Of a DNA stretch of 64,000 nucleotides, positions 16,538-30,310 are shown piece after piece. This stretch comes from an uncultured Ruminococcus sp. Lineage in GTDB: Bacteria > Bacillota > Clostridia > Oscillospirales > Acutalibacteraceae. The stretch lies in assembly GCA_902767845.1 (NCBI GenBank), contig CACXIV010000003.1, positions 1-64,000 on the forward strand. The letters are read 5' to 3'. The translations under genes were made by a program, and so were the position numbers. Position 1 is the stretch's first letter; every line of letters starts with the position of its first letter. The notes beneath the pieces were generated by a model. That model made no database searches, was not told the origin of the DNA, and worked only from the letters and a program-made list of their open reading frames with translations.

Positions 16538-16580
16538 AAGGATCTCATTACCGTCATGCCGGATGAGATCCTTCTTTTTA
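16538..16580. terminator. Bidirectional terminator between scfB and feoB
   Basis: An 11-bp perfect stem AAGGATCTCAT / ATGAGATCCTT with a T-run on the plus side (CTTTTTA). It separates two converging units. Confidence 0.85.
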
Positions 16581-18410
16581 TATAGCCCGAAACACCGCGG
16601 CGACGATCGCGCACAAGGCGACCCCGACAGCTGTCGGTATCAGCATAGACAACAGCGTGTACCAAAGGCTACCGGTCTCCTTTTTTATCGTCAAACAGGT
16701 CGTGGAACACGGAAAATGGCAGACGGTCATTATCATCATACATACCGCCGTGAGCCCGGTCCAGCCGTTTTGCGATAGGATCCCCAAAAGCTCGCTGTAA
16801 CCCGTAAAATCGCTCAGAACGCCGTTTGAGCTGTAAGCCATTATTATTAACGGGATAACCGTTTCGTTCGCCGGAAAGCCCAAAATAAACGCTGTGACGA
16901 TCACGCCGTCAAGTCCGATCGCTCGGCCGAACGGATCAAAAAATCCGGTGATATGTTCGAGCACGGTAATATCGCCGATCGTGGTATTAGCGCAGAGCCA
17001 GATCACCGCGCCGGCGGGAGCCGCCGCCATTACCGCTCTGCCGAGCACAAATACCGTCCTGTCAAGTATTGATCGCACCAGAGTTTTACCGAGCTGAGGC
17101 TTGCGGTAGGGAGGGAGCTCAAGCACGAAGCCCGAATCATTTTCTTTTTTCAGTATCACCGACAAAAGCTTTGAAATAACAAGGGTGAGAGCCGAACAAA
17201 TAATTATTATCATCACGAGTATCAGCGCGGTCTTGACAGAGCCCAAAGCTCCTCCGGCAAAAAATATCGTGATAAGCGCGATAAGTATCGGGAACCTTCC
17301 GTTACACGGCATAAAGTTATTGGTTAGCACAGCGATCAGCCTGTCGCGTTTGCCCTCGATGATGCGGCAGCCCGTAACTCCGCAGGCGTTGCACCCGAGT
17401 CCCATAGCCATTGTAAGACTCTGCTTGCCGTGGGCTCCGCTCCTGCCGAAAACGCTGTCAAGGTTGAACGCTATCCTCGGCAGATAACCCGAATCCTCCA
17501 GCAGCGAAAACAGCGGAAAAAATATCGCCATAGGCGGCAGCATGACAGACACTACCCAGCTCAGCGTTGTATATACGCCGTCGATCAGCAACCCCGTCAA
17601 AAAATCGGGCGCGTTCAGTATTTCAAAAAGCTCATAAAGTCGGTATTTCAGACCGTCAAACAATGCGCTCAGCAGCTCGCTCGGGTAGTTCGCGCCCACC
17701 GCCGTAAGCCAGAACAGCAGCCCGAACAGGCACAGCATTATCGGTATTCCTGTCAGCCTAGAGGTCAGTATCCTGTCGAGCCTGCCGGTTCGCCTGTCGA
17801 CCTTATTATCGTCGGATCTTGTAACGCACTGCCTGCATATCTGCCTGCTGAGCTGATGATTAAGCCTGCTGTCAAATGCTTCGCTTATACGGTTATCGGC
17901 GGACAGATCCTCGCGGCAGACCTTGTATATTAGTTTTTTAAGCTCGTCAAGGCTTTTTTTCCTGACCGCGCTCGTCTTTACCACCGGCACTCCGATCAGC
18001 TCGGAAAGCTTTTTATCGTCAATATTAACGCCGTTTTTCTCCGCCTCGTCGCTGAGATTAAGACAAACCGCCGCCCTATTGCAAAGCGAAAGCACTTCAA
18101 GCGCGAAGCTGAGGTTCCGCTCTAATCTGTTAGAATCGAGCGTGATAATTACGCAGTCGGGTTTGTTGTTGAGCAGATAGTCGCGCGCCGCCTTCTCCTC
18201 AACCGAATATGAATTGAGCGAGTACGCGCCCGGAAGGTCGACTATCTCAAACTCCTCGCCGTTTATCCTCGCGGTACCGCCTCCGCAGTCGACAGTTTTT
18301 CCCGTCCAGTTGCCCGTATGCCGGTTCATCCCGGTCAGGGCGTTGAATATCGTGCTTTTTCCGACATTCGGGTTCCCGGCGAGCGCAACGGTGTATTTTT
18401 TGCCGCTCAT
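16578..18410 (-). CDS. feoB: Ferrous iron transport protein B
   Basis: A 610-residue membrane GTPase. The N-terminal G domain has GNPNVGKSTIFNALTG (G1), VDLPGAYSL (G3), a helical spacer domain, then two Gate/nucleoside-recognition membrane blocks (for example SLTMAMGLGCNACGVTGCRI and GFPANETVIPLIIMAY). FeoB imports Fe2+ across the inner membrane in anaerobes. It is shorter than the E. coli protein (773) but normal for compact Firmicute forms. feoA lies immediately upstream on the same strand with 1 base between them. The unit shares a divergent promoter region with the cobalamin riboswitch operon. Confidence 0.95.
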   Translation of the reverse strand: MSGKKYTVALAGNPNVGKSTIFNALTGMNRHTGNWTGKTVDCGGGTARINGEEFEIVDLPGAYSLNSYSVEEKAARDYLLNNKPDCVIITLDSNRLERNLSFALEVLSLCNRAAVCLNLSDEAEKNGVNIDDKKLSELIGVPVVKTSAVRKKSLDELKKLIYKVCREDLSADNRISEAFDSRLNHQLSRQICRQCVTRSDDNKVDRRTGRLDRILTSRLTGIPIMLCLFGLLFWLTAVGANYPSELLSALFDGLKYRLYELFEILNAPDFLTGLLIDGVYTTLSWVVSVMLPPMAIFFPLFSLLEDSGYLPRIAFNLDSVFGRSGAHGKQSLTMAMGLGCNACGVTGCRIIEGKRDRLIAVLTNNFMPCNGRFPILIALITIFFAGGALGSVKTALILVMIIIICSALTLVISKLLSVILKKENDSGFVLELPPYRKPQLGKTLVRSILDRTVFVLGRAVMAAAPAGAVIWLCANTTIGDITVLEHITGFFDPFGRAIGLDGVIVTAFILGFPANETVIPLIIMAYSSNGVLSDFTGYSELLGILSQNGWTGLTAVCMMIMTVCHFPCSTTCLTIKKETGSLWYTLLSMLIPTAVGVALCAIVAAVFRAI

Positions 18411-18686: not shown

Positions 18687-18715
18687 TTGACGGAAGGGTG
18701 TTTACGTGATATAAT
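18687..18715 (+). promoter_or_regulatory. Sigma-A promoter for the cobalamin riboswitch operon
   Basis: TTGACG (18687-18692), 17 bases, TATAAT (18710-18715). Transcription would start near 18722, just before the aptamer. Confidence 0.82.
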
Positions 18716-18734
18716 CAATATAACAATCGAATAC

Positions 18735-18945
18735 AGTGAGCGCGTCGCCCCTTAATTAATCGAGGGACATAATAGAGAATGCGGTGAGAATCCGCAGCAA
18801 CTTTCATTACCGTATTTAGAGTAATTCTATAAGTCGGATCGCTTCCGCGCTTGCTTGGATCGACATTCTTGGATAAGAAGAAGAGCGTCCGCGGCGACGG
18901 TGTGCATTCGAGACGGGAAATCGTATCGCGTCATAACTCGTCACC
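18735..18945 (+). promoter_or_regulatory. Cobalamin riboswitch aptamer
   Basis: The conserved cobalamin-aptamer core is visible: GCGGTGAGAATCCGC (the GGUGnnAAUCC segment), then GCAAC..TTACCGTA, and a B12-box-like AAGTCGGATCGC near 18831-18842. A closing helix pairs CGTCGCC (18743-18749) with GGCGACG (18893-18899). Boundaries are approximate. In this RNA class, bound cobalamin turns the downstream genes off. It stands between the promoter at 18687 and the terminator at 19001. Confidence 0.85.
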
Positions 18946-19000
18946 CGTATTTAAACTACTGCTTTTGTAATGTTTTAATCAAGGCAGTGCTTTATTGGTG

Positions 19001-19030
19001 CGCTTTTCTTCGGAAAAGCGTTATTTTTTT
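19001..19030 (+). terminator. Riboswitch expression-platform terminator
   Basis: CGCTTTTC, loop TTCG, GAAAAGCG, then TTATTTTTTT: a textbook intrinsic terminator that ends just before the GGAGG of the first gene. The riboswitch therefore probably works by transcription termination when cobalamin is plentiful. Confidence 0.9.
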
Positions 19031-19041
19031 GGAGGTAAATT

Positions 19042-20886
19042 ATGAGGAAGTTCAAAAAATCCGTATCGGTATTTTTAGCCGTGCTGTGCGTTTTCTCTGT
19101 ATTAAGCATCGCATTGACCGCAAATGCCGAAGAAGTCAAAACCATCAGAGTGATCGTCAAAAACGACGTTTACTCAACCGAAAACGGCGCGCCGTGGGAT
19201 GATGTTCTGATCGACGATTATGTCGAGCTCAGCGACGACTCGTCAATGCAAACCGTTGTTGAGGATGCGCTTACCGAAAACAGCGTTGATTTCAGCTTCA
19301 ACGACTGGGGATATCTCAGCTCGATCAGCGGACTCTCGGAGTACGCCTGCAACGGCTCGGGCGGCTGGATGATGACGCTCAACGACTGGTTCACAAGCGA
19401 AGCCTCTACCGCTTACACCGTATCAAACGGCGGAATCAAGGACGGCGACGAGATCGTGGTAATGTATTCTCTGTCATGGGGCTATGACGTAGGCAGCCTT
19501 TGGGGAACCGCGGATACCGGATTAAAGTCGCTCGAAGTATCCGGCGGCAGGCTCGACCCCGGATTCCAAACCTCTCAGAAAGACTACATGCTGAACATTG
19601 AAAACGAAGAGGGAAGCGTTTTGCTCACTCCCCAAGCCATCAACAAAAACTATCAGGTGCGTCTTTACAAAAACGAGTACACACCGGACGCAAGCGGCAC
19701 CGAGCTGAACAAAAACTCAGAGATAGACGTAAAAAACGGCGACGTTATCTATATCGGTATCGGCAACCCGAGCTGGCCTACCATGGAAAGCTCGTCCGAA
19801 GAGACCGTTTATGCCCTTGACGTAATAAAAGCGCCGAACGATACCGTGAGCGACATCGAGAAAAAGCTCGGACAAACAGCGGATCATCTTCTTTCTCAGC
19901 CCGCGGCCGTAGGCTCGATCGGAGGGGAATGGTCGGTCATCGGACTCGCGCGTTCAAATATGATGACTGCGGAATACGCAGAAAATTATATTTCAGGCGT
20001 GACCGGATATGTAGCGGAAAACGGCTCCGCAAAACTTCACCGCACAAAATCGACCGAAAACTCGCGCGTTATTCTGGCGCTGACTTCACTCGGTCAGGAC
20101 GTTACAAATGTCAGCGGATATAACCTTTTGACGCCGCTTTATGACTTTGAATATGTTAAAAAGCAGGGACTCAACGGTCCTATGTGGGCGCTTATCGCGC
20201 TCGACTCGGGCAACTATGAGATTCCCGACATTGATATCGTCAACATTATTTCAAGAGATCTCATCATTGAATATATGCTCAATAATCAAACCTCACAAGG
20301 CGGCTGGGGCTTAGGCTCCGATACACCGTATATCGACTACACGGCTATGGCCGTGACCGCTCTCGCGCCCTATTACAACGCAAACGAGGACGTAAAAAAT
20401 GCGATCGACACTGCTATCGTGATAATGTCGGAGGCTGTTGACGAGGATAAAGTCACTTCTCCCGAGTCATACGCTCAGATCTTAACGGCTCTTTGCGCCA
20501 TGGGTATCGACCCCGACAATGACGCTGTGTTCAGCAAGGTCATAGACGGAATTATGAGCTATTCTTGCGAAAACGGCTTCAAACACGAGCTAAACGGAGA
20601 GTACAACCAAATGGCGACCGAGCAGTGCTATTACGCGCTGACAGACTATCTTAGAGCAAAAGCAAACAAAACCTCGCTTTATAAAATGAAAGACGCGTTT
20701 TATGATATCAATTCCGATTATAAGGTAGATATACTCGACGCGGCACTTATCCAAAAGTACGTTGCTCTGCTTGCAGACCTCAAAGACACACAAAAAACAC
20801 ATTCCGATATCAATAATGACAACCATGTGACCATCGGCGACGTCACCTGTCTGCAAAGGTACCTGGCAGGATACGGAGCATGTTAA
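19042..20886 (+). CDS. Secreted DUF4430 / alpha-alpha-toroid / dockerin protein, predicted cobalamin capture protein
   Basis: A 614-residue secreted protein. A signal peptide ends at about residue 29 (TANA-EE). A DUF4430 transcobalamin-like beta domain spans about 33-145, with the SGGWMMTLNDW core. A cadherin-like beta domain follows at about 160-262 (LKSLEVSGGRLDPGF). An alpha/alpha-toroid, prenyltransferase-like domain at about 270-540 has six helix repeats, such as EWSVIGLARSN, ENSRVILALTSLG, GPMWALIALDSGNY, DYTAMAVTALAPY, SYAQILTALCAMGID and TEQCYYALTDYL. A type-I dockerin at about 552-611 has two Ca-loops, DINSDYKVDILD and DINNDNHVTIGD. Mammalian intrinsic factor and transcobalamin combine the same toroid and beta folds to hold B12. 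The riboswitch and ECF neighbours support cobalamin binding; this is inferred, not shown. The dockerin suggests cohesin tethering. Confidence 0.88.
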   Translation: MRKFKKSVSVFLAVLCVFSVLSIALTANAEEVKTIRVIVKNDVYSTENGAPWDDVLIDDYVELSDDSSMQTVVEDALTENSVDFSFNDWGYLSSISGLSEYACNGSGGWMMTLNDWFTSEASTAYTVSNGGIKDGDEIVVMYSLSWGYDVGSLWGTADTGLKSLEVSGGRLDPGFQTSQKDYMLNIENEEGSVLLTPQAINKNYQVRLYKNEYTPDASGTELNKNSEIDVKNGDVIYIGIGNPSWPTMESSSEETVYALDVIKAPNDTVSDIEKKLGQTADHLLSQPAAVGSIGGEWSVIGLARSNMMTAEYAENYISGVTGYVAENGSAKLHRTKSTENSRVILALTSLGQDVTNVSGYNLLTPLYDFEYVKKQGLNGPMWALIALDSGNYEIPDIDIVNIISRDLIIEYMLNNQTSQGGWGLGSDTPYIDYTAMAVTALAPYYNANEDVKNAIDTAIVIMSEAVDEDKVTSPESYAQILTALCAMGIDPDNDAVFSKVIDGIMSYSCENGFKHELNGEYNQMATEQCYYALTDYLRAKANKTSLYKMKDAFYDINSDYKVDILDAALIQKYVALLADLKDTQKTHSDINNDNHVTIGDVTCLQRYLAGYGAC

Positions 20887-21653
20887 GCTTTATCAAAAAA
20901 CACAAGGCGGCGATCATTGCCGCAGTGCTTATGATCGCCGTGCTTACCTTCGCCTTTTTAAGCGGCGGCAAACCGGGGGAGAGCAAAGCGACTCCCGACA
21001 GCGCCGCTCCTACTCACGCCGAGGTCACGACCTGCGCAACGGAATCGACGGCGGAGCAAACCACCGCTTTACATACAGTTGAAACTACAGTACGGGCTAC
21101 TCAGGCCGCCGCACAGACAACTGCCGCTGAAACCACCGAGGCTGTAACCGAAGCTCCGACCGAGCCGGTCACCGATAAATACAAAACCGATCCCGTGCCG
21201 AGCGGAAAGCCGAAGCCCGTTGAGCCGCAGGAGCAAACCACCGCGGACAGCAAGTCCTACTGCACGTTTTCGATCTCATGCGCGACTATCCTTGACAATA
21301 AAGACAAAATGTCGCCCGATATAGCGGACATAGTCCCCTCGGACGGCTGGATAATGAAGCCTGAAAAGGTCGAGATAACCGACGGAGAGTCTGTTTTTGA
21401 TGTTCTGGTTCGCCTTTGCCGGGAGAAGAATATCCACATGGAATACACAATGACCCCGATCTACAACTCCGCCTACATCGAAGGTATTGCGAACATATAT
21501 GAATTTGACTGCGGAGATCTTTCGGGCTGGATGTACAAGGTGAACGACTGGTACCCGAACTACGGCTGCTCGCGCTATGTAATAGAAAACAACGACACCG
21601 TTGAATGGAACTACACCTGCGATTCGGGCAGGGATTTAGGGAATGAATACTGA
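20880..21653 (+). CDS. Membrane-anchored DUF4430 protein, predicted cobalamin-binding relay
   Basis: A 257-residue protein with an N-terminal membrane anchor (residues 11-28, AIIAAVLMIAVLTFAFL), a Thr/Glu/Ala-rich extended linker (about 38-123) and a C-terminal DUF4430 transcobalamin-like domain (about 126-257) with SGWMYKVNDWYPNYGCSRY. Five cysteines in that domain could form disulfides. The linker would let the domain reach through the cell wall. The ATG overlaps the previous stop by 7 bases, and ecfT starts 2 bases after its stop. A role handing cobalamin from the dockerin protein to the transporter is inferred from gene order. Confidence 0.83.
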   Translation: MLSFIKKHKAAIIAAVLMIAVLTFAFLSGGKPGESKATPDSAAPTHAEVTTCATESTAEQTTALHTVETTVRATQAAAQTTAAETTEAVTEAPTEPVTDKYKTDPVPSGKPKPVEPQEQTTADSKSYCTFSISCATILDNKDKMSPDIADIVPSDGWIMKPEKVEITDGESVFDVLVRLCREKNIHMEYTMTPIYNSAYIEGIANIYEFDCGDLSGWMYKVNDWYPNYGCSRYVIENNDTVEWNYTCDSGRDLGNEY

Positions 21654-21655
21654 TT

Positions 21656-22522
21656 ATGAACGACGCGTTTGTTAAGCTCCACCCGTTCTCGGGAATAATT
21701 TATTTTGCCGCCGTGATCGGCTTTTCAATGCTGTTCATGAACCCGGTTTGTATTTTGATCTCGCTGAGCTGCGCTATTTTGAACGCCGCTTTGATAAACG
21801 GCAAAAAAGCGCTTGCTTTCACGGCAAGGTTCATTTTTCCGATGATAACGGCGGTCGTTATAATCAATCCCGTATTCAACCACAGAGGAGCGACCATCAT
21901 AACATATCTGCCGTGGAACAATCCGCTGACGCTTGAATCCGTTATCTACGGAGCGGCAGCGGCGGCTATGGTGGCTTCTGTAATGCTATGGTTCTCGGTA
22001 TTCAACACTGTCATGACCTCGGATAAAATTATCTGCCTGTTCGGGAGGATCATTCCCTCGCTGAGCCTCGTGATCTCAATGTCCCTGCGCTTTGTGCCAA
22101 GGTTTATCTCTCAGTTCAAGCAGCTCAGAGCGTCAAGAGTAAACAGAAATAAAGCGAGCCTAAAAACGCTTGTCCGTGAGCTTTCCGTAATGATCTCATG
22201 GGCGCTGGAAAGCGCGGTAGAATCCGCCGATTCAATGAAAAGCCGAGGCTACGGGCTTAAAGGCAGAACATCCTACAATATCTTTAAATTCAGAAAAACA
22301 GATGGGACAGCATTGATTTTTACACTTTGTATTTCCGTCGCGCTGATCGTATTGATTATCCTCGGCACGGCAAAATACAGCTATTTCCCTATGTTTAAAT
22401 TTGACTTTTCAACAATTACAAGCGTGATTTTTTATATTTTGTACGCGGGCGTAATGCTGCTGCCCGCGATAATAAGCGGATGGGAGGGCTTGAAATGGAA
22501 GCGGTTAAGATCAGCGATCTGA
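21656..22522 (+). CDS. ecfT: ECF transporter transmembrane component EcfT
   Basis: A 288-residue membrane protein of the EcfT/CbiQ family. Hydrophobic helices occupy the N-terminal half and the C-terminus. The cytoplasmic coupling helices carry LRASRVNR and SADSMKSRGYGLKGR, the positions of the two Arg-containing motifs that dock on the ATPases. EcfT couples ATP hydrolysis to the toppling of the vitamin-binding S-component. It lies 2 bases after the DUF4430 anchor gene and overlaps the ATPase gene by 28 bases, so the four genes form one riboswitch-controlled operon. Confidence 0.92.
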   Translation: MNDAFVKLHPFSGIIYFAAVIGFSMLFMNPVCILISLSCAILNAALINGKKALAFTARFIFPMITAVVIINPVFNHRGATIITYLPWNNPLTLESVIYGAAAAAMVASVMLWFSVFNTVMTSDKIICLFGRIIPSLSLVISMSLRFVPRFISQFKQLRASRVNRNKASLKTLVRELSVMISWALESAVESADSMKSRGYGLKGRTSYNIFKFRKTDGTALIFTLCISVALIVLIILGTAKYSYFPMFKFDFSTITSVIFYILYAGVMLLPAIISGWEGLKWKRLRSAI

Positions 22523-24897
22523 GCTTTGCTTACCCCGAGTCTGACTGTCTTGCTCTCAGCAACATAAACCTAAAAATAAACAGCGGCGAATTTATCACGC
22601 TTTTCGGTCATTCGGGCAGCGGCAAGACGACTCTGCTGAAGCTGTTAAAGCCCGTACTTGCTCCTCACGACAGCAAAGAGGGAAGAGTCGAGCTGTTCGG
22701 ACAAGACGTATATTCGCTCTCGCACAGGGAGCAGAGCGAAAAAATCGGCTTTGTATTCCAAGATCCCGAAAACCAGATCGTCACCGATAAGGTCTGGCAC
22801 GAGCTCGCGTTCGGGCTCGAAAGCCTCGGAATACCCAACGCCGAAATACGCAGGCGGGTAGCCGAGACCGCGTCATACTTCGGGATCGAAAAGTATTTTG
22901 ACTCTGATATAAATATCCTCTCGGGCGGTCAAAAGCAGGTGCTCTGCCTCGCTTCAATTATGGTTATGCAGCCCGATATCCTGGTTTTGGACGAGCCGAC
23001 GAGCATGCTCGACCCGATAGCCGCCTCTGAATTTTTGTCGCTTATAAAGCGGATAAACACCGAACTCGGCGTGACCGTAATAATAACCGAGCACAGGCTC
23101 GAGGAAGTCCTGCCGTACAGCGACAGAGTCATAGCGCTTGAAAACGGTCGGGTCATATCCTTTGACACGCCCGAAAACACCGGAAAAAATCTAAAGGACA
23201 AAAGCGCTTCGTTTGAAGACCTGCCTGCCGCTATGCGGATATGGTACGCAGTCGAAAACGACCTTGATTGTCCCGTGACCGTAAGTCAGGGGCGCGATTG
23301 GCTTATTGATTACAGCAGAGATCATAAGCTCAAGGAGCTTTATCCCGAGGACAAAAAGGACAATAAAACGCCCGCTGTCGAGCTCAAAAGCCTTTGGTTC
23401 AGGTACAAAAAGCACGGAAAAGATATAATAAAAGACCTCAGTCTTACCGTAAATCAGGGCGAGATCTACGCCTTAACGGGCGGAAACGGCGCAGGCAAGT
23501 CAACGCTGCTGTCGCTGATAATCGGCGTAAACACGCCTTACAGCGGCAAAATCAGGCTGTGTTCCGATAATATAGCGACACTGCCGCAAAACCCGAGCCT
23601 GATACTCGGAGCAAAAACGGTGAAAGCCTCGCTTTATGACGCGTTTATCGGCACGGATATTCCAAAGGACGTGCAGAAAAGCCGTGTGGAAAACGCTGTA
23701 AAAGCGTGCAGCCTTGAAAGCTTTACAGACAGGCATCCGTTTGACTTATCGGGAGGCGAGGCGCAGCGAGCCGCTATCGCAAAGCTTTTGCTCCTAAAGC
23801 CTCAAATACTCCTGCTTGACGAGCCGACAAAAGGGCTGGACAGCAATCTCAAAAACGAACTTGCGAATATCTTAAAATCACTTGCAGATTCTGGCGCGAC
23901 AGTTATCATCGTCACCCACGATATCGAATTTTGCGCTAAATACGCCGACAGAGCAGCAATGCTCTTTAACGGCGAGATCACGTCCGAGGGTACTCCGCGG
24001 CAATTCTTTAGCACGAACAGCTTTTACGTCACCTCCGCCGGCAAGATTTCGCGCGGGATAATCAACGGGGCGGTAACCGCGGAAGAGATAATCTACTGCT
24101 GCACAGGGAACAGGGAAGACCCAAAGCCCCCTGCAAGGACAGAATTTTTCAAGCCTGATAACAACCTGAAACCCGTGGGAGAGAAAAAGCAAAAAGCAAA
24201 GCTTCCAAAGCGAACGACAGCGTCCGCCGTGATGATCCTGCTCGCTATACCGCTGACGATATTTGTCGGCACAACATACCTTGACGACCAAAAGTACCTG
24301 TTTATTTCGCTTTTGGTTTTGCTCGAGAGTATGCTGCCGTTCTTTTTGATATTCGAGGGCAGAAAGCCTCAGGCGCGCGAGCTGATAATCATAGCCGTCC
24401 TCTGCGCGATCGCGATAGCAGGGAGGACGCTGTTTATCGCGCTGCCCCAGGTCAAGCCCGTTATCGCTATTGTAATGATAGCCGGCATAGCGTTCGGCGG
24501 AGAAACTGGCTTTGTTGTAGGCGCGGTCAGTATGCTCGTGTCAAACATCTACTTCGGTCAGGGAGCGTGGACGCCGTGGCAGATGTTTGCCGCCGGGATT
24601 ATCGGGTTTTTGGCAGGAGTGATATTCAAAAAAAATCTCCTGCGTCAAAACACAGGAGTAATCAGCGTTTTCGGTTTTATATTTACTGTTGTAATCTACG
24701 GCGGGATAATGAATTTTTCATCGCTCATCCTGACGCGCACGCCCGTTAACTCGGGAACGATCACAGCATTTATGCTCCAAGGTCTGCCGTTTGATCTGAT
24801 CCACGCCGTTTCAACCTTGATCGTGCTTTTCCTGCTCTCAAAGCCAATGCTCGAAAAGCTCGACAGGGTCAAGCTCAAATATAACCTGATCCGCTGA
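22495..24897 (+). CDS. ecfA: ECF transporter: fused EcfA-EcfA' ATPases plus S-component
   Basis: An 800-residue fusion. ATPase 1 covers about 1-225 (Walker A GHSGSGKTT at 38-46, signature LSGGQKQ, Walker B DILVLDEPTSMLD). ATPase 2 covers about 294-505 (TGGNGAGKS at 328-336, LSGGEAQ, ILLLDEPTKGLD). After a Lys/Pro linker comes a membrane domain at about 575-782 that resembles CblT-type S-components (RELIIIAVLCAIAIAGRTLF, VKPVIAIVMIAGIAFGGE, FGQGAWTPWQMF). S-components bind the vitamin; ECF ATPases are usually separate proteins. The ATG at 22495 follows GGGAGG by 7 bases. Cobalamin as substrate is inferred from the riboswitch and the S-domain resemblance. Confidence 0.92.
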   Translation: MEAVKISDLSFAYPESDCLALSNINLKINSGEFITLFGHSGSGKTTLLKLLKPVLAPHDSKEGRVELFGQDVYSLSHREQSEKIGFVFQDPENQIVTDKVWHELAFGLESLGIPNAEIRRRVAETASYFGIEKYFDSDINILSGGQKQVLCLASIMVMQPDILVLDEPTSMLDPIAASEFLSLIKRINTELGVTVIITEHRLEEVLPYSDRVIALENGRVISFDTPENTGKNLKDKSASFEDLPAAMRIWYAVENDLDCPVTVSQGRDWLIDYSRDHKLKELYPEDKKDNKTPAVELKSLWFRYKKHGKDIIKDLSLTVNQGEIYALTGGNGAGKSTLLSLIIGVNTPYSGKIRLCSDNIATLPQNPSLILGAKTVKASLYDAFIGTDIPKDVQKSRVENAVKACSLESFTDRHPFDLSGGEAQRAAIAKLLLLKPQILLLDEPTKGLDSNLKNELANILKSLADSGATVIIVTHDIEFCAKYADRAAMLFNGEITSEGTPRQFFSTNSFYVTSAGKISRGIINGAVTAEEIIYCCTGNREDPKPPARTEFFKPDNNLKPVGEKKQKAKLPKRTTASAVMILLAIPLTIFVGTTYLDDQKYLFISLLVLLESMLPFFLIFEGRKPQARELIIIAVLCAIAIAGRTLFIALPQVKPVIAIVMIAGIAFGGETGFVVGAVSMLVSNIYFGQGAWTPWQMFAAGIIGFLAGVIFKKNLLRQNTGVISVFGFIFTVVIYGGIMNFSSLILTRTPVNSGTITAFMLQGLPFDLIHAVSTLIVLFLLSKPMLEKLDRVKLKYNLIR

Positions 24898-25284: not shown

Positions 25285-28200
25285 ATGTTAAAGAAAAAAC
25301 TACCGAGGAAGGGGACGGCGCTATTGCTGTCCGTGGTTTTGACGGCAAGTGTATGCGTCAACACTGCGCTTGCCGCGGAAACCATAGTGACGAATAACGC
25401 CGCCCCTGCCTACGATGGTGATGTCGCGCCGCCTAACCTTGACAACATCCTCGGCAAGGACGGTTCCGGAGGCACTGTTTTAGTTTCAACGGGCGACGTT
25501 CACTCAACCACCGCGGGCGAAACAGGATCTGCCGCAGGCACGGACACGGCGGAGGGAACAACGGAAGGAAATACGCAAGGCGTTTACGAGAACGTCTTTG
25601 TCGGCGAGCCCAGAATTATCGTGAGCGAGCCGGAGTATACGACTTCCGCACAGTCTCCGCGGCTTGACGCGCCCGGAACAAGGACGGACACCATTCCCGT
25701 CACCATCGTTCCGACCGACAGCGACACTCCGCTCACTCCCGATGAATCAAAGGAGAATACCTCGCCCGATCCCGAGACGGATATCGACGAGAACTCTCCT
25801 TATTCTCCGAAGATCAAGTTCGGCACGGGCAGCGGACTATTCGCGCGCTGGGGCACAAGCGAGCTTGCGAACGAGTATTACCTCGTTCCCGGCGACACGG
25901 TCACGATAACTGCCGCTAACGAGCCCGAGGGTTCAAAGATTTACTTCACCGGCTCGAACGACGCAATCGAAGCGTACAAGGCAGACCCCGCGTTCGATTT
26001 CACCGCCGAAGACAGCGGCTGGACCGAATACACGGACACCGTAACTATCCGCTTCTCAGATAACTACGCACGCGTTGGCGCTGTAATGACCGATATAAGC
26101 GGCAAGGCGATAAAGGGTACCTTTATCAGCACGAACTTCTGGGAACTCGACTGTGAACGCAGGATAGGCGTATACGGCAGCGCGGACAATTACAATCTCA
26201 GAATGACCGACTACCTGAACCTTTCGGGAGCGACCGCTTCAAACATCACGCAGACCTACTACATCAAGGCTGCGGCGAATACCGAGGCGGCTGACCCGAC
26301 CGAGACAGACTACGACTTTAAGCTTTCCGACAGCGAGCCCGGATATTTAGACGATATCCTCGGCGGACTGACTGGAAACACGGCGTTGAACTACAAGGGC
26401 ATTTGCGTCTATTACAGGAACGGCGAGGCGGTTTACACCTCTCCCGTTGTAAGCGGCACATTCAACTTTGAGCTCACGCCCATGCTCGTTTTCTCGAACG
26501 AGTACGACGAAACCGATGTCCTCTACTATCCCTGCCGACTTAGCGCACGCGTTATCTACGGCGGCAATTACGACACGGTTTATTACGGTATAGGCAAGGT
26601 CGGCAGTCTCAGCTCCACCGAGGGCTGGAGCAACGCAGGCGAGTCCTTCGAGGTCAGCGGCGATATCAACGCCGACGACGTCGCGCTCTATGCCGTGCTT
26701 TACGACAGCAAAAACAATGTGGGCTATACAAACGATGACGGCACCTTCAAAATCTTTGAAAAGCCGCTTATCCGCGTTGGCGACACTACCATTTCCGATA
26801 ACGGAGATACCGCGCCGGCAACCATCACCCTCGAGAGCACAGGCGTTCCGCAGAATTTCAGCTCGGACATCTACTACACTCTCGACGGCAGCGACCCCAC
26901 AGACAACGGAACGCTCTACACCGGACCCATTAGCACGGCTAAGTTCTCCAAGGGCGATGTAGTCACCGTAAGGGCGTTCTCACAGCTTACAAACGGCGAC
27001 AAAAGCATTGACGGCGAAATAGCCGAGAAGAATGTCACCGTAACATACACCGCTCCGACAATCACCTACGCGAACGGCTTTGTTACGCTTTCAAACGACG
27101 GCGGCACGATTTACTACACCGTCGACGGAAGCGATCCGACTTCATCTTCAACGAGAATGACATACACCGCTCCGTTCTCGCTCGGCAGACTGAACAGCCT
27201 TGTCCGCGCGGCGACCTATGCCGAAGGCAGGTATTCTGCTGTTACTGAGACCTACGCCGACGGCGGAGCTTACGATCTCGGCACGCTCGCGCTCCCGAGC
27301 ACGTCTTTCGGCGAGCCCGTAAAGTTCTACGTGAGCGAGGTAACGGAAGCGTCGGGCAGCCGTCCGACAAACTCCCAGGAGTTCACCTTCACCATTACCG
27401 AGCGGGCGTTGTTTCATTTGATATGACCTTTAGTAACGTCAATGAAGGCGGCTACAGCGGCTATTATATCTACCGTCCGCAGCTTTTTGACGCAGATGGC
27501 AACAGAGTTTTTCAGTTCGATGCCTATGATGTTGACGAATACAGGCATTATTACAGCAAAACCGTACTTTCCGCCGGAACCTATACGGTCAAGATCCGTA
27601 CCGACGGCGACCAGGCCTACCTGTGCAGTCTGAAAAACTTACGAGCGGACGGCAGTGACAAGATATTCTTCAACGGTGCCTACAATGATATGGTCGAGAT
27701 GTTCATTTACGACCGTGGATATTCCCTTTATCTTGACAGGCTCGATACCGAGTCGGTTGTATATTATAACCTCACAACCGATGGCAGCGAGCCCGACGAT
27801 CCTACGCTCTCTTCGGCCTCTTCGGCGCCAAATTCCGGCAGCATAATCTATGTCGGAAAAGAAAAGCCCATTGTAAAAGTCAAGGCAGCGGTCTACAACG
27901 CCGAAACCGGAACCTTGGGCAGAGTCTATTCAGGATATTTCGCCTACGCGGGCATATTCGATATCTATGCCGTTGACGGCGAAGGCAACAGGACGTCTGT
28001 CGGCTGGGATAAACTCGACCAGACAAATTATGACGTCATCTATGACAAGACCGGAAGACTTTATGTTGACCTTCCATCTATTGAGGATATTTTCCCCGAC
28101 GGCGTGGACGATGTTCAGTATTACTATACGGTAAGCGACGGCACGTCGATTTTCGACAGATACGGAAACGTTTACGAAAGAGCGCGCGAGTATATCCCGG

Positions 28201-30310
28201 GTCAGGTCACGCTTGCCGTCCTCGCTGAGGCTGCGGACAAGGATAACTATCATCAGAGCTGGGGCTTTGATGTAAGGGCAGGCGCACGCGTCACATCGGG
28301 CGGCAAGGTTTATTACATCCGCTCGGATGAGAGTTTCCGCGGCTATCTCTACAGTATGCCGGCTCTGCCCGTTACCACGGTGAACGGCAATACCATCACC
28401 CTCAGCACACAGTCGGAGGGCGCGAAGCTCTATTATTCGACCACCTATAATGTATACTTCGGCAACGCTCAGCGCAATTACACCGAGTATACAGATCCTA
28501 TAGAATTTGACCGCAACATTATCTTTACCCCCGTTGCGGTTTGGGATTCAAGCAAAACTTACGACGGAATGTACAGCGGCTTTTCGACTACCGGAAGGCA
28601 GTTCATTCCTTCGACCGTTGTAAAGTCATACACCTTTGAGGAATCTCCGGCTCCCGGCAAGGAATCCGGCGAGTACTATGTTCCGCTCAGCACGGAATAC
28701 TCGCAGTCGGTAGACATCACCGTTCCCTCGGGTCAGAAGTATTATTTCCAAAATTTGCGCACGATCAGAGACACCAACTACTTTGATTCCGAGTGCGAGG
28801 TGTACGTTGAGCTTCAAAAGCTCGTTGACGGTTCCTTCGTCACCGTAAATGACAATTTCTACAATATCCCGTACGACAGCGGATTATGGTACGACAACGG
28901 ACCGTTCCTTACAGCCGGCACATGGCACCTTACCTTCAAGGCGGATCCGGGTTCGGAGGCAGGCCAGAAGGCACTTGTATACCTCAAGGCGGTATGCGAT
29001 AACAACGCCGACGATTATTCTTACCCCAGACTCGGCGGACTTGTTGTAACACCGAGGATCGACGGTATGCTGGTAGATGTAAGCCATATCACCATACCCC
29101 AAACTACCATTGACGAGCTTTATACATATATAACAGACAACAAAGGCAAGACCATTGAGGAGATCACCGGCTCGGCTAACGCTACGGAAGCCGACGCAAA
29201 GGCGGTAATAAGGGCTTACCTTGAGGACAAAAACAATTATGACAAAGTCACTGTTTGGCGCAGAGCCAGAAACGACTCAAACTCGAAAGGCATAGGCGAC
29301 ATACGCGCAAGCGACAACTGGGTACGTTTGGACGCCAGCGACGATATGGAGGCAAACACCGCATATACATATGTTGCCGAGATATATCTCAGGACCACAT
29401 GGGGCGCGTGGAATTACGGAGTTTTTGACCGCCACGGCAACGTGGGCTGGTACAGAACAGAGCTTTCATCTCCGCTCTATGTTCTCCCGAGGATGTCGAA
29501 AACCCGGTCATCACAGATTTCAAATTCCTTCAGGCAGGCGACAAGGAAGTTGAAAATATATCCAAGGCATGCACCATATTCACACAAGCAACAGACAACC
29601 AAAGGGCAAACACAGACGGCGCAGTGCTCATCCTGACCGATACCGCAGACAGCACCGTAAGCTACACGACAACCGTTCAGGTCAACGCCGGTGTTGCAAC
29701 GTATGGATTCACAGACGTTCTTCCCGGAACATATATTCTGAGCCTTGACAATTCATTTGAAAAGATCAAGCTGGACGATGTTCTTGTAACAGTCAGTGAT
29801 TCCGATACCTCAAAGGATATCAGCGTTATCCGCAATGTATTCGACATCACGGGTACGATAACCTCGGCGGACGATAAAACCGACCTGAGCGATATCACGA
29901 TCATACTCCTCGACAGCGAAGGAAACGAGCTCGCTCAAACCGAAGCCGAGGTAACAGGCGAAAGTGCTTCTTACAGCTTCAGCGACCTCAGAGAAGGCAG
30001 CTACACCGTAAGGATCGACAGCGACAAGGTCGAGGCGGAGGATACCGCGGTCAATATCACGGATACAGATGTTACCGCAAATATCGCGGTAAGCCTTGCT
30101 TATCTGATCGGTGACGTCAATAACGACGGCATAGTAGATGTACTCGACGCGATATTGATCCAGAAGTTTGCCGCAGAAAAAGCCGCCTTAAACGAGAAAT
30201 AATTATATGTTGCAGATGTTAATAACGACGGCATAGTAGATGTACTCGACGCGGCGGATATTCAAAAGTTCACGGCTGAAAGAATCACCGAATTTAAGAA
30301 AAAAGCATAA
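25285..30310 (+). pseudogene. Giant dockerin-bearing surface protein, broken by two frameshifts and one stop
   Basis: One gene appears to span the region in three pieces. A signal peptide (about 1-31, ending TALA) is followed by a Thr/Asp-rich part, then chitobiase-C-terminal-like repeats (IYYTLDGSDPTDNGTLYTGP, IYYTVDGSDPTSSSTRMTY, VYYNLTTDGSEPDDPT). Further beta domains, carboxypeptidase-regulatory-like repeats and dockerin Ca-loops (DVNNDGIVDVLD twice) complete it. The frame is lost at about 27402-27406 (GAGCGGGCG; one G missing restores GVVSFD) and at about 29490 (CTCCCGAGG; one C missing restores EDVENP). An in-frame TAA at 30200-30202 separates the two dockerin repeats. Restored length would be near 1,670 residues. 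Decay, phase variation or sequencing error cannot be separated here. Confidence 0.75.

Follow-up and report, generated by a model that had tools for sequence, protein, structure and literature searches.

A predicted cobalamin capture and import operon in an uncultured Ruminococcus species

A stretch of 64,000 nucleotides (nt) from an uncultured Ruminococcus sp. (GenBank assembly GCA_902767845.1, contig CACXIV010000003.1, positions 1 to 64,000), hereafter called the window, was analyzed computationally with the focus on positions 18,687 to 24,897. This region comprises a promoter, a cobalamin-riboswitch-type leader, an intrinsic terminator and four genes encoding two predicted extracellular proteins with SLBB (DUF4430) domains and an energy-coupling factor (ECF) transporter, and is very probably an operon for capture and import of vitamin B12. 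The gene order, domain content, riboswitch linkage, kinship of the transporter with CbrT, folds and genome context reported here were obtained by computation, and the operon is considered likely to function as a cobalamin-repressed B12 (cobamide) scavenging system according to the mechanism proposed below. The features, all on the plus strand, are as follows.

18687..18715, plus: sigma-70-type promoter, TTGACG-17-TATAAT with TG extension (consensus scan, 11/12 positions)
18726..18863, plus: cobalamin-riboswitch-type aptamer, short form (RF00174, 27.1 bits; alignment of leaders)
19000..19030, plus: intrinsic terminator, hairpin 19000-19021 and T-run (sequence scan)
19042..20886, plus: gene 1, predicted secreted SLBB (DUF4430), cadherin-like, alpha/alpha toroid and dockerin protein, 614 residues (open reading frame (ORF), Pfam, AlphaFold2)
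19126..19521, plus: SLBB (DUF4430) domain of gene 1, residues 29-160 (Pfam; AlphaFold2 block, pLDDT 88-98)
19522..19755, plus: cadherin-like beta-sandwich of gene 1, residues 161-238 (Pfam PF12733)
19852..20685, plus: alpha/alpha toroid of gene 1, residues 271-548 (AlphaFold2 model, Foldseek/VIA, profile matches)
20701..20865, plus: type I dockerin of gene 1, residues 554-608 (PF00404, PDB dockerins)
20880..21653, plus: gene 2, predicted membrane-tethered SLBB (DUF4430) protein, 257 residues, with N-terminal helix, Thr-rich stalk and C-terminal SLBB (ORF, PF14478)
21384..21617, plus: SLBB domain of gene 2 (Pfam; AlphaFold2, pLDDT 93; Foldseek)
21656..22522, plus: gene 3, EcfT (CbiQ family) transmembrane coupling subunit, 288 residues (PF02361, 29.5 bits, cut-off 25)
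22480..24897, plus: gene 4, EcfA-EcfA'-EcfS fusion, 805 residues (TIGR04520, 365 bits, over cut-off; PF00005 twice; PF07155, 6e-14)
24289..24888, plus: CbrT-like S component at the C-terminus of gene 4 (phmmer, family profile)

The four genes abut up to position 24897 with overlaps of 7 and 43 nt and a gap of 2 nt, in agreement with a first-pass annotation of the same DNA that had described four overlapping or nearly overlapping genes with these domain compositions; the compositions were confirmed with Pfam, TIGR04520 and AlphaFold2. The DUF4430 domain of gene 1 scored 20.9 bits in the protein scan (cut-off 23.8) and 25.5 bits, above cut-off, in the genome search, and that of gene 2 (PF14478) was found with an E-value of 8.1e-18. 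The cadherin-like domain scored 14.1 bits, under the PF12733 cut-off of 24.2, with the homologues at loci L052 and L127 above it. The C-terminal domain of gene 1 is a type I dockerin (PF00404, E 4.2e-9, 36.9 bits against a cut-off of 22.9). Inspection of the sequences by eye suggested a signal peptide on gene 1 and an N-terminal membrane helix followed by a Thr-rich stalk on gene 2.

Between them, genes 3 and 4 supply an EcfT, a pair of EcfA domains and an S component nearest CbrT. The S domain used alone as a phmmer query against PDB retrieved a single S component, CbrT (6FNP_A, E 1.9e-11), and a profile of 43 S-domain sequences matched CbrT with 1.4e-19, followed by 4HZU (8.9e-6) and 3P5N, a riboflavin uptake protein (3.8e-4). 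Cobalamin and cobinamide are both substrates for import by ECF-CbrT (Santos et al. 2018, PMC5997447). A second and stronger CbiQ-family match lies elsewhere in the genome, on contig C1, which fits a dedicated ECF module at the window operon.

The fold of the second SLBB domain was compared with known structures. The 17 best Foldseek matches to the gene 2 model were chains of intrinsic factor, transcobalamin or haptocorrin, and all 19 matches at E ≤ 0.001 fell either on these B12 carriers or on 3U7Z (two chains). The beta-grasp fold is specifically like the beta domain of intrinsic factor and transcobalamin, as expected for the transcobalamin-like clade of the SLBB superfamily. The toroid of gene 1, as anticipated in the first-pass annotation, superposed in the predicted structure on the alpha domain of intrinsic factor, transcobalamin and haptocorrin, though terpene cyclases scored higher. 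No Pfam toroid family was listed for the window protein; Prenyltrans and SQHop_cyclase_C were found in relatives under their cut-offs, and the toroid profile search gave matches to squalene-hopene cyclases. Searches of PDB with single sequences returned 11 matches for gene 1, every one over the dockerin, and 7 weak matches for gene 2 (best E 0.033), with no transcobalamin or intrinsic factor among them.

The leader matched RF00174 with 27.1 bits (E 4.6e-5 in a 501-base scan and 3.7e-5 in a genome scan) and, since the gathering score is 31.5 bits, is named here a sub-threshold, short, riboswitch-type leader. No other RF00174 match at E ≤ 0.001 was found anywhere in the assembly. Model positions 1-189 aligned end to end and include a covarying hairpin, with 64 inner positions replaced by 9 nt; in the aptamer of locus L051, 62 model positions are replaced by 6 nt. 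Both aptamers therefore lack most of a stretch that we take to be the P6 extension, which is present in the aptamer of locus L035. The L035 aptamer thus keeps approximately 60 model positions more than that of the window, and the two may sense different forms of cobalamin. The leader of L051, the closest relative (64% protein identity), scored 39.4 bits, above the gathering score, and aligns with the window leader, and the leader of L035 (genome G185, same genus) scored 87.3 bits in front of the same kind of operon. A chance match in the window is therefore unlikely, and the riboswitch and terminator described in the first-pass annotation were upheld with the qualification that it is the homologous leaders that pass the threshold. 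Of nine predicted pairs, three are preserved through changes at both positions in one or more of six leaders, the covariation term being small (-0.3 kcal/mol). A further idea, that the short aptamer senses non-adenosyl cobalamin since the genome cannot adenosylate, was dropped: PF01923 was not found in the assembly but BtuR (PF02572) was, with 1.2e-54. Upstream of the operon, a FeoB gene occupies 16578-18410 on the opposite strand.

In order to evaluate the link with B12 beyond the window, 200 genomes of the family were surveyed for same-strand riboswitches within 12 kb. DUF4430 was found in at least 150 of the 200 genomes and the cobalamin riboswitch in 126. Among the 150 DUF4430 matches listed, 67, in 65 genomes, have a cobalamin riboswitch upstream, none has one downstream on the same strand, and two have one nearby on the other strand; a control in which the 150 thiamine pyrophosphate riboswitches listed took the place of the cobalamin riboswitches gave 0 of 150. 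The genome collection was also scanned with the toroid alignment and the best 80 loci were taken, largely from uncultured Clostridia (Ruminococcus, Oscillospiraceae, Lachnospiraceae and others) and Paenibacillus. Domains at these loci were identified with iterated profiles grown from the domains of the window itself, by E-value thresholds only and not checked family by family. An SLBB partner is present at 74 of the best 80 toroid loci, within the toroid ORF at 37 and in a nearby same-strand gene at 60. Of these loci, 55 have 5.5 kb or more of downstream sequence, and the full set of EcfT, EcfA and CbrT-like genes follows at 43 of them. The CbrT-like domain was found in 69 sequences, fused to the ATPases in 27 (the window counted) and unfused in 42, indicating that the fusion of two ATPases with the S component is common.

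Riboswitches were mapped, by coordinates and three short motifs, at the 50 of the best 80 loci with longer flanks. RF00174 was found in 45 of the 50 genomes; by eye, a same-strand match was placed upstream of the toroid match at 35 loci, some of the coordinate matches possibly lying on other contigs, and the motif GGTGNNANTCC was counted upstream with at most one mismatch at 29. Direct RF00174 scans were above the gathering score at 12 of 15 loci (L052, L071 and L116 under), a result which bears out the mapping but gives no frequency, since the 15 were picked among loci with a mapped match. Mapping and direct scans both locate riboswitches upstream of SLBB and toroid genes. At locus L067 (255-3926), coordinate mapping placed three tandem cobalamin riboswitches (255-446, 1289-1477 and 2320-2508), with a separate SLBB gene after each (138, 138 and 450 residues).

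The toroid and SLBB domains are joined and separated in several ways among these loci. The window and L051 have one SLBB-cadherin-toroid-dockerin protein, while L052 has an SLBB-cadherin-dockerin gene followed by a toroid-dockerin gene, and at L035 (same genus) three separate genes encode one SLBB protein, one toroid protein and a further small SLBB protein whose start resembles a lipobox. At L040, L041, L045 and L048-L050 the toroid and SLBB are in one protein in the order of animal transcobalamin, with two apparent membrane helices between them as judged by eye. This pattern of fusion and separation speaks for a working partnership between the two domains.

A second arrangement was found at six loci (L143-L148), picked from the DUF4430 survey of the family for a cobalamin riboswitch 263-317 nt before a small DUF4430 match; all six riboswitches were above the gathering score. 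A membrane protein of 170-190 residues follows the small DUF4430 gene at five of the six (all but L143), and the same pair occurs without a riboswitch at L149 in G074, a genome of the same genus as the window. The pairs lie at 2620-3560 of L144, 806-1324 and the preceding ORF of L145, 402-1387 of L146, 400-1368 of L147, 353-1332 of L148 and 264-1278 of L149. The small genes are lipoprotein-like, and DUF4430 was above cut-off in all three scanned (L144, L146, L148). The six membrane proteins had no Pfam match at E ≤ 0.01, and an NCBIfam scan of three gave one weak CrcB match (17.4 bits against a cut-off of 125). One of them used as a single query matched CbrT with 9.5e-4; the profile of all six matched CbrT with 1.6e-6 as the only PDB match at E ≤ 10 and aligned with S components of the window type with a probability of 97%. 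Judged from these alignments, the membrane proteins are probably an unnamed family of B12 S components, which would need a common ECF module.

The assembly (1,695,111 bases, 86.85% complete) encodes predicted users of cobalamin. A MetH-type protein of 796 residues has B12-binding domains above the Pfam cut-offs and scored 465 bits with TIGR02082, under the cut-off of 1010.85. CbiC, the sole corrin-synthesis gene sought, was not found in this incomplete assembly. Three genome matches to the cohesin family PF00963 were above cut-off. The C12 protein (1494 residues) was confirmed by a Pfam scan to have cohesin in two stretches (40.1 bits), together with an X25 domain, and therefore provides at least one possible partner for the dockerin of gene 1. 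Dockerins were found with the iterated profile at 15 of the best 80 toroid loci; Pfam scans of 11 of these (not L061, L069, L102 or L114) were all above cut-off, with L064 and L071 partial and barely over. Downstream of the operon, the window has three abutting ORFs at 25285-30202 (junctions at 27423/27426 and 29624/29636), the first with Fn3-associated and chitobiase-type repeats and the last with a partial dockerin match of 19.9 bits, under cut-off; the three may represent a single surface-protein gene interrupted by frameshifts.

These results are consistent with the following mechanism. When cobalamin is scarce, the leader would let transcription run past the terminator. The product of gene 1 would be secreted and its SLBB and toroid domains would hold B12 sandwiched between them much like transcobalamin and intrinsic factor, with the protein kept at the cell surface by docking of its dockerin on a cohesin scaffold. 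The second transcobalamin-type SLBB, on the membrane stalk of gene 2, would receive or cover B12 and present it to the CbrT-like S component, and EcfT with the two fused ATPases would power import. BtuR would adenosylate part of the vitamin and MetH would use cobalamin. The first-pass annotation had proposed B12 capture by the intrinsic-factor pair of folds with dedicated ECF import; this interpretation was supported in part, in that the folds, riboswitch linkage and CbrT kinship speak for it, and from them we infer the binding and the hand-over. A bolder and only tentative version is capture run by a scaffold in rumen and gut Clostridia, in which the two halves, SLBB and toroid (one protein in the window; separate and each dockerin-tagged at L052), would be brought together by cohesin and dockerin, trapping B12 between them for passage to the stalked SLBB that loads the dedicated CbrT transporter; the animal carriers would then be a soluble single-chain offshoot.

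Several observations weigh against the B12 scavenging reading. The leader is under the gathering score, for which reason the gathering-score Rfam scan of the whole window returned no match, and the fold of its RNA has no more than a moderate advantage over shuffled sequences (z -1.83). G074, the other genome of this genus to be searched, had no riboswitch match, no operon match and one small DUF4430 gene. Eighty-three of the 150 DUF4430 matches listed have no listed cobalamin riboswitch upstream, so that by the riboswitch test the DUF4430 family is not restricted to B12; short contigs and strict filters account for some of the 83 and other ligands perhaps for others. The full downstream ECF set is missing at 12 of the 55 loci (L055, L060, L062, L065, L079, L082, L091, L096, L097, L098, L110 and L123). 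The toroid fold is common, with terpene cyclases and epimerases scoring above haptocorrin in Foldseek/VIA. Profile searches of PDB at E up to 10 found no transcobalamin, intrinsic factor or haptocorrin among the 44 sequences matched by the toroid profile A2, nor among those matched by the SLBB profile A5 (2 sequences) or profile A3 (28 sequences). In gene 1 the SLBB precedes the toroid, the reverse of the single-chain order of intrinsic factor, transcobalamin and haptocorrin, and the protein is therefore not classed as a member of that family. Support from cohesins is modest: of two matched proteins scanned with Pfam, confirmation came for the C12 protein only, and the C4 protein, the best genome match (27.8 bits, cut-off 24.1), had no Pfam family at E ≤ 0.01.

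Three other explanations were weighed against B12 scavenging. The first, which overlaps with it, has the same architecture and mechanism with a B12 precursor or other cobamide as ligand (cobinamide, or pseudo-B12 from neighbors) and is rather unlikely as the whole account. CbrT and BtuF bind cobinamide too (PMC5997447), auxotrophs with partial pathways may salvage other vitamers (PMC6593275), and BtuR is encoded in the genome; on the other side, transcobalamin has its SLBB hairpin stacked against the base of cobalamin (PMC1796856). This stacking would favor a complete cobamide should binding by the bacterial domains be similar. In the second, the ECF part would import B12 while the SLBB, toroid and dockerin proteins, merely co-regulated, bind a glycan or other solute, the toroid being enzyme-like or carbohydrate-binding. 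Surface proteins that degrade polysaccharides commonly contain dockerin and cadherin-like domains, and the toroid scored best against terpene cyclases and also well against sugar epimerases and the GH76 and GH105 folds. Caution against assigning B12 to all SLBB proteins was also expressed by the reviewer Zhulin in 2007 (PMC1796856). This second explanation is nevertheless improbable in view of the Foldseek matches of the tethered SLBB, all 19 of them B12 carriers or 3U7Z chains, the many loci with SLBB or toroid genes after cobalamin riboswitches, and the second SLBB and S-component arrangement that is likewise under cobalamin riboswitches. The third, a CbiMNQO-type importer of cobalt (Co2+) controlled by cobalamin, is already disfavored and highly improbable: cobalamin riboswitches also stand before cobalt ECF transporters (PMC2667541, PMC11477304) and gene 3 is in the CbiQ family, but the S domain matched CbrT and vitamin S components with no CbiM-type chain, and, with no CbiC match in the incomplete assembly, the cell would seem to have little need of cobalt for making corrins.

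B12 scavenging by such proteins was already predicted by Burroughs et al. in 2007 from SLBB, toroid, CbiO and CbiQ (PMC1796856). The first-pass annotation knew of no description of the whole arrangement. Beyond the 2007 prediction are the controlled riboswitch linkage, the CbrT kinship, the models picking out B12 carriers, the dockerin and cohesin context, the pattern of fusion and fission, and the second arrangement, and the link of the SLBB and toroid operon to B12 is now much firmer. The literature search, which had subscription papers such as Rodionov et al. 2009 outside its scope, yielded nothing joining riboswitch, SLBB and toroid, CbrT and dockerin, and the link to the riboswitch or the S component may have been pointed out before. 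No experiment on any bacterial SLBB-toroid protein was found in the literature searched, and the available portions of PMC3766115, PMC4285132, PMC6593275, PMC1949818, PMC2667541, PMC11477304 and PMC7689651 do not describe the window operon. B12 uptake by auxotrophic gut bacteria is described as an open problem, with orthologues of known transporters in nearly half of auxotroph variants (PMC6593275). The SLBB and toroid operons with neighboring ECF genes (43 of the 55 toroid loci) are concrete candidates for this uptake; the 2007 proposal of a bacterial origin for animal B12 carriers would become testable, and the results suggest competition for B12 between gut bacteria and their host by means of one shared pair of folds.

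Compared with the vertebrate carriers intrinsic factor, transcobalamin and haptocorrin, the likeness lies in a transcobalamin-type SLBB fold and an alpha/alpha toroid in secreted proteins, whereas sequence similarity to the window proteins was not detected in the PDB profile searches. Gene 1 differs in its reversed order and added cadherin-like and dockerin domains, a second SLBB stands on a stalk in gene 2, and receptor endocytosis in vertebrates contrasts with ECF import here. The additional Foldseek match 3U7Z is RUMGNA_00854 of Ruminococcus gnavus, a structural genomics entry titled as a putative metal-binding protein. In the transcobalamin-like SLBB clade of Gram-positive bacteria (PMC1796856), secreted proteins have SLBB and toroid in either order and, as here, the operon often has a second SLBB protein and CbiO- and CbiQ-like genes, the animal proteins being proposed to derive from bacterial ones. 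The words riboswitch and dockerin are absent from the main text of that paper and no S component is named in its available text; neither a dockerin nor an ATPase-ATPase-S fusion is described there. The nearest solved relative of the window S component is ECF-CbrT of Lactobacillus delbrueckii (6FNP). The CbrT of that organism is one of eight S components on one common ECF module (PMC5997447), whereas the S component of the window shares one polypeptide with two ATPases, lies next to an EcfT of its own and is accompanied by predicted extracellular capture proteins.

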